NCBI GenBank assembly: GCA_902836505.1
Contig: CADFQU010000033.1
Location: 1-8,035 of the forward strand
Direction: 5' to 3'
DNA length: 8,035 bases
Source: Streptococcaceae bacterium
Lineage (GTDB): Bacteria > Bacillota > Bacilli > Lactobacillales > Streptococcaceae
The position numbers and the translations under genes were made by a program. Of this stretch, positions 4,856 through 7,424 are shown one piece after another; position 1 is the stretch's first letter, and the number at the start of each line of letters is the position of its first letter. The notes beneath the pieces are model-generated. The model saw only the letters and a program-made list of their open reading frames with translations, had not been told where the DNA came from and did not search any database.

Positions 4856-4885
4856 AGTATGAATATAAAGAAAGAGGGTGGTATT

Positions 4886-5152
4886 GTGGGATTTACAGAC
4901 GAAACAGTACGTTTTAATCTTGACGATTCAAACCGTAAAGAAATTAGTGATACATTAAAGGATGTCTACTTATCTTTGGATGAGAAGGGCTACAATCCAA
5001 TCAATCAAATCGTTGGTTATGTACTCAGTGGTGATCCTGCTTATGTACCTCGTTATAACAACGCTCGCAACCAAATTCGTAAGTACGAACGAGATGAAAT
5101 TGTTGAAGAATTGGTTCGTTACTACTTGAAAGGGCAAGGGATCGATCTCTAA
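4886..5152 (+). CDS. ireB: IreB/ReoM family regulator (UPF0297), phospho-substrate of the PASTA kinase
   Basis: This 88-residue protein begins [10 protein letters not shown]. In Enterococcus faecalis IreB the matching Thr4 and Thr7 are phosphorylated by the PASTA kinase IreK and affect cephalosporin resistance. In Listeria the homologue ReoM, phosphorylated on the matching Thr, controls ClpCP-dependent turnover of MurA, the first enzyme of peptidoglycan synthesis. Both Thr residues are present here. The highly conserved core [20 protein letters not shown] lies at 37-56. The start is the GTG at 4886, after AGAGGGTGG, and not the ATG at 4859, which precedes the predicted transcription start and lacks a ribosome binding site. 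It overlaps the next gene by one base (TAATG). Confidence 0.93.
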
Positions 5153-5571
5153 TGAGAATTATGGGACTAGACGTTGGCTCGAAGACAGTCGGAGTAGCCA
5201 TCAGTGATCCATTAGGTTTTACTGCTCAAGGTCTGGAGATTATTCAGATTGATGAGGAGAAAGGGGAGTTTGGTTTTGACCGTCTCTCTGAACTGGTGAA
5301 GGAATACCGGGTTGATCGCTTTGTCGTTGGTTTGCCGAAAAATATGAACAACACAAGCGGTCCTCGAGTGGAAGCGAGTCAAGCTTATGGAAAACGCCTT
5401 GAAGAGTTATTCAACTTGCCCGTTGAGTATCAAGACGAGCGTTTGACGACCGTTGCCGCAGAGCGAATGCTGATTGAACAAGCAGATATCAGCCGAAATA
5501 AGCGAAAAAAAGTAATTGATAAATTGGCTGCCCAGTTGATTTTGCAAAATTATTTAGATCGAAAATTTTAG
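5152..5571 (+). CDS. yqgF: Putative pre-16S rRNA nuclease YqgF (RuvX)
   Basis: YqgF is an RNase H-like nuclease that trims the 5' end of 16S rRNA precursor; the older name RuvX reflects its likeness to the Holliday-junction resolvase RuvC. The 139-residue length is normal. The acidic residues of an RNase H-like site are visible: Asp7 in [12 protein letters not shown], Asp95-Glu96 in YQDERLTT, and Asp123 in [13 protein letters not shown]. The substrate-loop pattern [15 protein letters not shown] (58-72) is intact. The ATG shares its A with the ireB stop codon (5150-5152), pointing to translational coupling. Confidence 0.95.
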
Positions 5572-5588: not shown

Positions 5589-5900
5589 ATGGCACACAAT
5601 CATGATCATGACCACAACCATGACGAACGCGAATTGATTACATTGGTAGATGAGCAAGGAAACGAAACCTTGTTTGAAATCCTTTTGACCATTGATGGAA
5701 AAGAAGAGTTTGGTAAAAACTATGTTCTTTTGATTCCTGCAAATGCAGAAGAAGATGAAAATGGTGAAGTAGAAATCCAAGCATACTCATTTACTGAAAA
5801 CGAAGACGGAACAGAAGGCGACCTTCAACCAATCCCAGAAGATTCAGATGATGAATGGAACATGATTGAAGAAGTCTTCAACAGCTTTATGGAGGAGTGA
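5589..5900 (+). CDS. yrzB: DUF1292 / UPF0473 protein (YrzB-like)
   Basis: This small, very acidic protein of 103 residues belongs to a family of unknown function that regularly follows ireB and yqgF in Firmicutes. The N-terminus alternates His with Asn or Asp (His at 3, 5, 7, 9 and 11), which could bind a metal. The core [20 protein letters not shown] (16-35) is typical of DUF1292, and the C-terminus is rich in Asp and Glu and ends in an amphipathic segment. GAGG at 5578-5581 precedes the ATG by seven bases. The gap to yqgF is 17 bases, so it shares the operon. Its TGA stop is part of a perfect hairpin (5898-5922). Confidence 0.9.
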
Positions 5901-5905
5901 TACAG

Positions 5906-5952
5906 TCTGGGAGACTGTATCACCTCAACTCCTAGAAACTAGAAAGAGTTGG
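5906..5952 (+). repeat. 47-base direct repeat, copy 1
   Basis: It matches 6006-6052 at 41 of 47 positions by my count, without gaps, and begins TCTGGGAGACTGTATCAC. The second half folds as CAACTC-CTAG-AAA-CTAG-AAA-GAGTTG (5926-5951). In this copy the first part is also the right arm of the hairpin on the yrzB stop codon. Confidence 0.85.
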
Positions 5953-6005
5953 AACGTCCGGGGGACATTTTTACCCTTGCGTTGGAAATGCAGACCGCAA
6001 GTAAA

Positions 6006-6052
6006 TCTGGGAGACTGTATCACTCCAACTCCAAGAGATTGGAAAGAGTTGG
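6006..6052 (+). repeat. 47-base direct repeat, copy 2
   Basis: It lies exactly 100 bases after copy 1. The second half folds as CCAACTC-CAA-GAGA-TTG-GAAA-GAGTTGG. Differences from copy 1 include T to C opposite a G (U-G pair becomes C-G) and CTAG/CTAG replaced by CAA/TTG, so the stem survives. This copy lacks its own left arm for hairpin A. Confidence 0.85.
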
Positions 6053-6121
6053 TAAATAGAGTGGATGTTTTTAGCTCAGCTTCTAAAAATATTGGAACTG
6101 AAATAAGAAACCAAAGAAATA

Positions 6122-6165
6122 GGGGAGCGTGAGCCAGCAACAAGGCTTGATCGCTCTTTTCTTTT
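6122..6165 (+). terminator. Terminator-like hairpin abutting the folC ribosome binding site (possible attenuator)
   Basis: GAGCG (6125-6129) pairs with CGCTC (6152-6156), and AGCC (6132-6135) with GGCT (6144-6147), with wobble pairs and a two-base bulge between. TTTTCTTTT (6157-6165) follows. The folC ribosome binding site AGGAG begins at the next base, so no promoter fits between terminator and folC. Confidence 0.75.
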
Positions 6166-6176
6166 AGGAGAAAGAA

Positions 6177-7424
6177 ATGAATCAAATTGAAGAATGGATG
6201 AATAGTCGAATTGGACTCAATTTTCGTTCAGGCTTGGGGCGGATGCAACAGGCTGTAAAGCTCTTAGGTGCCCCTCATGAAGCTGTTCCGATGATCCATG
6301 TGACGGGGACCAACGGGAAGGGTTCAACCATTGCTTTTATGCGCCAGCTATTCCAACAACATGGTCTGAAAGTAGGTACCTTTACTTCTCCGCATATCGT
6401 TAGTATGCATGATCGGATTTGTATCAATGGGCAACCAATTTCGGATCAGGATCTGATTCGCTTGGGTCAGAGAATCCAAGAGATGGAGTCTCAGCTTCTC
6501 GAGACTCACGACCAACTCTCCTACTTTGAGATTGTCACCCTCTTGGCCTTTTTGTATTTTCATGAGCAAGAAGTAGACTTGGCCTTGATTGAGGTTGGGA
6601 TTGGAGGCCTCCTCGATACGACCAATGTCATTACAGGAGAGGTGGCAGTGATCACCTCAGTAGGGCTGGATCACCAGGAGACCTTGGGAGGAAGCCTAGA
6701 GGCCATTGCTACTCAAAAAGCTGGGATCTTTAAAGCTGGGAAGCCGGCTGTTATCGGTCCACTGGCTAAAGAGGCTGAGCAAGTCTGCACAGAAAAGGCC
6801 CAGGAAACAGGCTGTCCGCTGGCTCGCTATGGAGATGATTTCCAACTAGTGAAGGGCGTCTTCCAAGATGCGCATCATCGGTTTGATTCACTAAAAATTG
6901 GGCTCAATGGAGCTTATCAGGAAGAGAATGCGGCGGTTGCTCTCGAAGCCTTTCTCCTTTTTATGGAGCAGAGGGGTCTGGCAGTCGATGAAAACGGTGT
7001 TCGGGAGGCTTTGCAGGCGACTAGCTGGCCGGGGCGTCTGGAGAATTTTGACCAAGGCGTCTATCTAGATGGCGCTCATAACCCCCATGCCATCCATCGC
7101 TTAGTCGAATATGCCCGCACCTTTTCAGATAAGCGCGTGAAGATCCTCTTTGGAGCCTTAAAGCGCAAGGATTACCAAGGGATGTTGGAGATCTTTTCAA
7201 GAGACTTGCCGGAGGCGGACTTAACGGTGACGACCTTTGCTTATGGGGAAGTTGTCCAAGAGGCGGATGGCTTAGGATATCCTTATGTAGCTGATTTCAG
7301 AGATTACTTACAGGATTTTTATAGCCGACAAGATAGGGAAGAGGTGCTATTTGTCACTGGCTCTCTCTACTTCATTTCAGAAGTACGCGCTTATCTACTA
7401 GAGCAAGGAAAGAATCCTTTATAG
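6177..7424 (+). CDS. folC: Folylpolyglutamate synthase (bifunctional with dihydrofolate synthase possible)
   Basis: FolC adds glutamate to folates using ATP, keeping them in the cell and making them better cofactors; some bacterial forms also join glutamate to dihydropteroate. The 415-residue length is normal. The Mur-ligase order is seen: P-loop GTNGKGST (44-51), SPH (71-73), EVGIGGLLDTTN (139-150), LDHQETLG (164-171), the Lys-containing QKAGIFK (180-186), the hinge WPGRLE (284-289), and DGAHNPHA (298-305) opening the C-terminal domain. Many homologues have GGRLD where this has GGLLD. AGGAG (6166-6170) precedes the ATG by six bases. It seems to depend on read-through across the hairpin at 6122-6165. 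Confidence 0.95.
   Translation: MNQIEEWMNSRIGLNFRSGLGRMQQAVKLLGAPHEAVPMIHVTGTNGKGSTIAFMRQLFQQHGLKVGTFTSPHIVSMHDRICINGQPISDQDLIRLGQRIQEMESQLLETHDQLSYFEIVTLLAFLYFHEQEVDLALIEVGIGGLLDTTNVITGEVAVITSVGLDHQETLGGSLEAIATQKAGIFKAGKPAVIGPLAKEAEQVCTEKAQETGCPLARYGDDFQLVKGVFQDAHHRFDSLKIGLNGAYQEENAAVALEAFLLFMEQRGLAVDENGVREALQATSWPGRLENFDQGVYLDGAHNPHAIHRLVEYARTFSDKRVKILFGALKRKDYQGMLEIFSRDLPEADLTVTTFAYGEVVQEADGLGYPYVADFRDYLQDFYSRQDREEVLFVTGSLYFISEVRAYLLEQGKNPL

Follow-up and report, generated by a model that had tools for sequence, protein, structure and literature searches.

The window analyzed here is an 8,035-nucleotide stretch of DNA from a Streptococcaceae bacterium. Between a DUF1292 gene and folC it carries two similar 47-base copies, which had been read from the sequence alone as a structured repeat, either a tandem RNA element or a small mobile repeat. 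The locus therefore raises the question of what this repeat is, how far it extends, and what it might do at the end of a gene. The genes of the window are arranged in the order recA (as we take the first gene to be), IreB (4859-5152), RuvX (5152-5571), the DUF1292 gene (5589-5900; presumably yrzB), and folC (6177-7424).

A multi-unit array between the DUF1292 gene and folC

The two copies, 5906-5952 and 6006-6052, were found to be identical at 41 of 47 positions (6 differences) with starts 100 bases apart, as reported, and their alignment extends to 68 nt at 78%. The compensatory changes described between them are also present, an outer U·G becoming C-G and the inner CTAG/CTAG becoming CCAA/TTGG. 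The account of a two-copy repeat is correct for the copies but overlooked the unit between them, 5953-6001, which is of a different type; the reported copies are units 1 and 3 of a shuffled multi-unit array with a period of ~50 nt. Similarly, the first copy is real, but its start lies 5' of 5906, in a hairpin (5898-5922) that begins with the TGA terminating the DUF1292 gene. Each unit consists of a hairpin A, with a short stem and a three-base loop that is usually GGG or AGT, and a hairpin B, with an outer stem of 6-7 pairs, a short inner stem, and an A-rich 3' bulge. The features, all on the plus strand, are as follows.

5589-5900 (+): upstream DUF1292 gene, with its TGA stop codon at 5898-5900; Pfam PF06949, NCBIfam PRK13678
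5898-5922 (+): hairpin A1, of the type without a T-run; 11 perfect pairs, -13.6 kcal/mol; left arm 5898-5908 (stop codon plus 8 nt), GGG loop 5909-5911, right arm 5912-5922
5925-5952 (+): hairpin B1; outer CAACTC/GAGTTG, inner CTAG/CTAG, A-rich 3' bulge; -8.1 kcal/mol
5953-5973 (+): hairpin A2, of the T-run type; AACGTCC-GGG-GGACATT followed by TTTA; weak, -4.0 kcal/mol
5976-6001 (+): hairpin B2, of another B type (CTTGCG/CGCAAG); -8.1 kcal/mol
6003-6022 (+): hairpin A3, of the type without a T-run, with a short left arm; no folding alone (0.0 kcal/mol for 6000-6025 folded in isolation)
6026-6052 (+): hairpin B3; CAACTC/GAGTTG, inner CCAA/TTGG; -8.8 kcal/mol
6053-6110 (+): degenerate fourth and last unit, comprising A4 (TAGAGTGGATGTTTTTA; no folding in isolation) and a B4-like remnant
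6177-7424 (+): co-directional downstream gene folC; TIGR01499 folC, 404 bits

When folded as RNA, the 228-nt array of the window gave a z score of -3.56, and none of 200 shuffles was equally low. The minimum-energy fold of the array uses a perfect 15-nt complementarity between 5894-5908, the left arm of A1 prolonged back into the DUF1292 gene, and 6012-6026 in unit 3, starting with the right arm of A3. This predicted long-range pairing competes with hairpin A1 and is a possible switch. A coding origin of the repeat, already dismissed in the sequence-only reading, was rejected: three does not divide the ~50-nt period, and no reading frame was seen to persist from unit to unit.

The corresponding gap was located in further streptococci with a 15-base pattern drawn from hairpin A, which matched 115 stretches; the 29 titled as Streptococcus were analyzed, the other 86 being titled as other taxa. 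An array lies directly behind the DUF1292 gene in all 29 of these loci. Among the loci matched by this pattern, the closest relatives of the window are Streptococcus sp. bf_0095 and S. australis (95% over 3.3 and 2.5 kb aligned, respectively). Of the 30 unit orders obtained from the 29 named loci and the window, 27 are distinct under a coarse typing (A with or without a T-run and six B types, two of them poorly separated) from which unclassified units were dropped and whose parser missed a unit in seven arrays (spacing 98-102) and, in four, added a false hairpin 131-133 nt further on. Many of the DUF1292-folC gap lengths step by ~50 nt. Unit spacing is mostly 49-51 nt over 86 extracted arrays, with a parser range of 46-54 only; these arrays comprise 82 from DUF1292 loci (window included), 2 from rpoB, and 2 from nadE, with one genome counted twice. 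A DNA search with one array gave matches in 101 of 197 Streptococcus genomes, some of them elsewhere than between DUF1292 and folC.

Pairing in the units and the strand that carries it

Selection on structure, which had been proposed from the paired changes in two copies, was borne out by covariation in alignments of the units. Across 21 units of equal length, 93.8% of pair cells held standard pairs, compared with 77.1% after shuffling and 40-46% with slid partners; both sides had changed in 14 of 16 pairs, and double-change cells numbered 68 versus 24.8 in the shuffled alignments. An alignment of 91 distinct units from several gene loci, which had been fitted to the model, gave 89.4% standard pairs versus 69.5% shuffled and 277 double-change cells versus 84.6 shuffled; 54 of 500 shuffled versions of it had at least as many pairs altered on both sides. 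The structure of the unit is under selection.

The first A stem of an array is nearly free of irregular pairs. In 83 arrays including that of the window (three of the 86 were skipped), 904 of 913 pairs are Watson-Crick, 2 are G·U, and 2 are A·C, so that these stems give no strand information. Some eleven distinct arm sequences occur in them, and almost all of these pair over 11 bp, of which the stop is part. Internal A stems and the outer stems of B contain 155 G·U versus 48 A·C and 33 G·U versus 7 A·C, respectively, an excess as expected for RNA of the sense strand. In addition, CGAG stands opposite CGAG in the outer B stem of 50 of 165 units, giving tandem G·A with covarying flanks, under a scoring that favored G·A over other mismatches and with tandem copies that are not independent; of the remaining units, 85 show complete pairing in this stem, 21 contain mismatches of other kinds, and 9 yielded no stem. 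Read on the opposite strand, the tandem G·A becomes T·C mismatches. The tandem G·A in B, together with the excess of G·U over A·C, points to sense-strand RNA. If the tandem G·A has been read rightly, B is transcribed, and hairpin A therefore cannot end all transcripts.

Two structural likenesses were also considered. A kink-turn in B was dropped because the G·A pairs are not adjacent to the bulge. Some A hairpins have a C-AGU-G apical loop, which we take to be IRE-like; the GGG apical loop is as common as this type.

Stop codons, neighboring genes, and distribution

The stem of hairpin A starts with the stop codon, and the complement of that codon is paired to it in the right arm. Covarying pairing of a stop codon is, to our knowledge, unusual. 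For the 83 hairpins located at the ends of open frames of at least 60 codons, the combination is TAA–TTA in 56, TGA–TCA in 26, and TAA–CTA in 1, and no crossed combination occurs; this tally required inner pairing and a B-like sequence (31 of 160 hairpins lacking the latter were left out), draws 50 of the 83 from DUF1292 (51 with one variant ending), whose orthologues are not independent, and includes two hairpins (L286 and L291) that look like repeats. The stop-pairing rule is obeyed by 39 of the other 46 hairpins and broken by 7. Both the TAA–TTA and the TGA–TCA versions are present among orthologues of nadE and of the DUF1292 gene.

Sixty further regions were taken from the best-scoring matches to the module, and the 59 that were scanned (L334 was too short) all contained matches. 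A stop triplet is found at -3 of the model start in 56 of these 59 loci. At 31 of the 59, the stop (at -3 or -6) terminates a reading frame open for at least 80 codons, compared with 89 of 4016 control stop triplets (2.2%) in the same loci; one of the 59 is the DUF1292 gene again (L341), and one of the 31 resembles a dispersed repeat (L291). The module is thus not a known repeat scattered at random, the outcome that had been named in advance as contrary to the original proposal. On the other side, 28 of the 59 loci do not lie at the ends of long frames, many of them being within dispersed repeats. Given these 28 loci, the mobile-repeat half of the earlier reading may still hold.

Genes ending at the module were confirmed with family models, at one locus per gene, as nadE, sigA/rpoD, dnaK, obgE, rplT, rpmA, rpoB, and a mannose-type PTS IIA gene. 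The module lies at the ends of these genes in some genomes and also within dispersed repeats, and several genomes carry it at the same gene ends (DUF1292, nadE, dnaK, sigA, and obgE). The next frame is co-directional at both rpoB loci (rpoC), at 4 of 4 sigA, 4 of 6 nadE, and 2 of 3 dnaK loci, and likewise at rplT, PTS IIA, leuS-like, and ABC-transporter loci. At L276, and perhaps at L302, the next frames are on the opposite strand, and several loci have no clear neighbor within the available sequence. A co-directional next gene is therefore found at most, not all, loci where it can be read. Of 30 rpoB-rpoC junctions, 16 were parsed, giving 14 plain gaps of 35-184 nt and 2 that hold arrays (406 and 505 nt); one genome has six T-run units between rpoB and rpoC. 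A clean empty site at this junction was sought and abandoned, as the flanks are too divergent to set an insertion boundary.

The earlier description as a tandem RNA element or small mobile repeat was thus close but incomplete, the repeat being a genus-wide module that is anchored to stop codons at many genes. A covariance model (R1) run at E ≤ 0.01 on eight genomes picked for earlier matches gave 11 to 58 matches per genome. A second model (R2) had matches at E ≤ 1e-4 in 170 of 197 Streptococcus genomes, the other 27 giving none. Strict filters were applied, with some 29 candidates scored per genome, so that these counts are lower bounds. In a sample at the level of the order, 27 of 198 genomes had module matches. 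Of these 27, 17 are in the Streptococcus sample and a further nine match rpoB DNA of streptococci at E ≤ 1e-32; the last (G304) has one weak match to the module, which is probably due to chance, and no such rpoB match. The same rpoB comparison on 13 genomes without the module gave 2 weak rpoB matches. At this search sensitivity, the module looks confined to Streptococcus.

Copies away from gene ends occur in several settings. In one genome (G155), dispersed repeats carry one unit at an end (L242, 420-738 on the minus strand; L245; and L247-L249). Two more families of dispersed intergenic repeats carry the module after a context that resembles a gene end, with a GAG and stop-like sequence; one is represented at L297, L298, L309, L311, L313, L314, L317, L321, and L324 and the other at L282, L294, L327, L328, and L337. 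By eye, a module-like hairpin at L124 (G003:C1:863945-863996) appears to lie inside a transposase-like frame, on its opposite strand. Of 15 genomes with the element, 12 contained the IS200-type (Y1) transposase family PF01797, as did 6 of 10 genomes lacking the element, and two of the richest genomes do not have it; the count was made at the level of the family rather than of RAYTs, with fragments included. Mobility driven by IS200 or RAYT proteins was rejected, since by this family-level count PF01797 does not appear to track the element. Carriage as phage or plasmid cargo was also rejected, as phage and plasmid records contained no match to the array of the window.

Relation to known elements and possible function

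No family of Rfam 15 matched the window at E ≤ 1, and all 7 matches in 20 other loci fell below the gathering score of their own family, so that a known Rfam element was rejected, in line with the first reading, which had recognized no known streptococcal repeat or named riboswitch. Plastid-psbJ-1 overlaps units at L305 465-533 with 32.3 bits (gathering 62, E 0.082). A weak match to csRNA (RF02379; 42.8 bits, gathering 57) was seen near a tandem of units at L339 647-726 on the minus strand. The Streptococcus sRNA SSRC8_2 (RF02616) adjoins units in the dispersed repeat at L242, but its match, 68.3 bits against a gathering score of 72, lies almost wholly between the units (edge overlaps of 22 and 2 nt). 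Among the papers listed in searches of open-access literature (main text), none was found to describe this two-hairpin module.

Like the module, SPRITE, BOX, and RUP of Streptococcus pneumoniae are small, structured, intergenic repeats, BOX being modular with variable numbers of boxB copies (passages in PMC3049150). SPRITE is described in the same passages as an 18-bp duplex with a long U-rich tract, 28% GC, and AAAA/TTTT ends that is almost absent outside the pneumococcus and S. mitis (PMC3049150). The module, by contrast, has stems of ~11 and 6-7 bp, is present in 170 of 197 Streptococcus genomes, and has a GC content of 0.29-0.62, mostly 0.38-0.54, in 95 matches; judged by the published description, it is not SPRITE, as had been stated. 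BOX (boxA/B/C) and the ~107-bp RUP with its terminal inverted repeats differ from it in length and architecture, a distinction drawn from description alone rather than from sequence comparison. A survey of stem-loop families lists BOX, RUP, and the 45-nt genic Stre-1 for S. pneumoniae (passages in PMC2267715), and BOX and RUP are the sole named intergenic repeats in passages of the S. mitis B6 genome paper (PMC2828477).

Two further systems are also close. REP/BIME elements of enterobacteria and other bacteria are short palindromes at gene 3' ends and in intergenic regions, clustered as mosaics of non-identical modules and dispersed in the genome, and they sometimes supply the stop codon; GTAG REPs in particular often provide the TAG stop of flanking genes (passages in PMC3733652). 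REPs within 15 nt of a stop have been reported to stall ribosomes (ref. 17 of PMC12306157, as cited in a passage there). Those portions of the REP literature offer the closest working analogy (PMC3733652, PMC12306157). The module differs in that its units, in the arrays read, run head to tail on the sense strand rather than in alternating inversion, each unit has two different hairpins, stems vary freely between loci, and its presence does not appear to follow that of the IS200-type transposase family. The REP tag letters CGTC do occur in A arms, for example in AACGTCC, within the stem and not at its foot. Terminator-like stem-loops of low-GC Firmicutes likewise lie at or near stop codons, often with a complementary 5' A-tract and 3' T-tract of the 4A/4T kind (passages in PMC1590033), but an A/T tract does not explain the TGA–TCA version or first hairpins without a T-run, and in the module a B hairpin follows A and the units form tandem arrays. 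By analogy, the module most likely works like REP/BIME repeats or stop-overlapping terminators, but it falls under no named family.

The first A hairpins, at the stop, have a median of -11.5 kcal/mol. A T5 run follows in 57 of 86 arrays; in 24 of the 86 there is at most one T in a row, which excludes these 24 as ordinary intrinsic terminators. The A hairpins inside the arrays are weak, with a median of -3.7 kcal/mol (n = 255) and a T5 run in 171 of 255, and B1-B3 of the window have -8.1 to -8.8 kcal/mol each. A simple terminator scan of the window called no hairpin of the array. According to the respective sources, a ribosome at the stop codon of E. coli represses a terminator within ~27 nt (PMC4824070), terminators of B. 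subtilis lie a few nucleotides past stops because RNA polymerase outruns ribosomes (PMC7858274), and clusters of hairpins work as terminators (PMC8355165). Hairpin A starts at distance zero from the stop, and the second A lies ~50 nt on, past the ~27-nt reach in E. coli. The main text of transcript papers on strains D39 and TIGR4 does not mention folC (PMC6212727, PMC6296669).

The strong first A hairpin, the T5 run that is present in 57 of 86 arrays and lacking in 24, the weak internal A hairpins, and the stable B hairpins of the window suggest a reading that is preferred tentatively and held with somewhat less than even confidence: a genus-wide streptococcal two-hairpin module at stop codons that would act in the mRNA of the sense strand, forming 3' ends in a leaky manner and limiting read-through into the next gene. 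Hairpin A would close when the stop codon is free of a ribosome, and some transcripts would then end or be trimmed there; the hairpin would also block 3' exonucleases, capping the upstream message. Transcripts that continue would carry the B hairpins, and the number and type of units would set the proportion that reads into the next gene. It is possible, although doubtful, that the module goes further and serves as a translation-status device, in which a ribosome terminating at the stop melts hairpin A and a bare stop lets it close, so that the fate of the RNA after the gene (to end, be trimmed, or continue) would follow translation, with the shuffled arrays setting a different threshold in nearly every strain. 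The module would be an undescribed structured element of most sampled streptococci, among them relatives of the pneumococcus, and in some genomes it sits at the ends of core genes such as rpoB, sigA, dnaK, nadE, obgE, and genes for ribosomal proteins. The pairing of the stop codon would make control of 3'-end formation by translation termination directly testable in streptococci, and the shuffled DUF1292-folC arrays would be a natural library of variants for measuring the tuning of read-through.

An alternative is a selfish palindromic repeat, REP/BIME-like or MITE-like, that spreads, amplifies in tandem, and is tolerated at gene ends without a host function. The dispersed copies within larger repeats of several genomes, the SSRC8_2-like repeat between units, and the 28 of 59 loci away from long-frame ends favor such an element, and it would have precedents in BOX, RUP, and SPRITE, judged parasitic by Croucher et al. 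(a passage in PMC3049150), and in the stop-supplying GTAG REPs. It is nevertheless unlikely, given that the same gene ends are occupied in several genomes, that a switch of stop codon among orthologues of nadE and of DUF1292 is matched by a compensatory change, and that neither the transposase family nor the phage and plasmid records speak for its mobility. Distinctly unlikely is an ordinary fail-safe series of stop-overlapping intrinsic terminators, common in Firmicutes, with incidental B hairpins. The T5 runs of first and internal A hairpins agree with it, as do the Firmicute stem-loops and terminating hairpin clusters described in part of PMC1590033 and PMC8355165; the covariation and strand-specific tandem G·A of B, however, mean, if rightly read, that B is transcribed, full termination by the six T-run units between rpoB and rpoC would be costly, and the first units without a T-run and the weak internal A stems do not suit such a series.

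The near-perfect first stems may reflect template switching at the level of DNA rather than selection on RNA. A fuller account of this kind would have the sense strand fold while single-stranded in replication or transformation, with template switching perfecting the first stems, slippage shuffling the units, and any function lying in recombination. The scarcity of G·U in the first stems, the stepped gap lengths, and the shuffled unit orders are in its favor, but the G·U excess and tandem G·A of internal A and B fit RNA better and a purely DNA-based mechanism leaves the position at gene ends unexplained, which makes this account very improbable.

Two minor observations concern the DNA just 5' of folC. 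At 6124-6166 of the window, a GAGCG...CGCTC hairpin is followed by a T-rich tract that stops ~11 nt before the folC start codon, an attenuator-like arrangement that was not called by the terminator scan; a T-run hairpin ahead of folC is also found in several relatives. At one locus (L166, G165:C2:69500-72800), the DUF1292-folC gap exceeds 2 kb and holds a group II intron-like element behind a terminator upstream of folC, an insert in which a reverse-transcriptase-like frame can be seen by eye.
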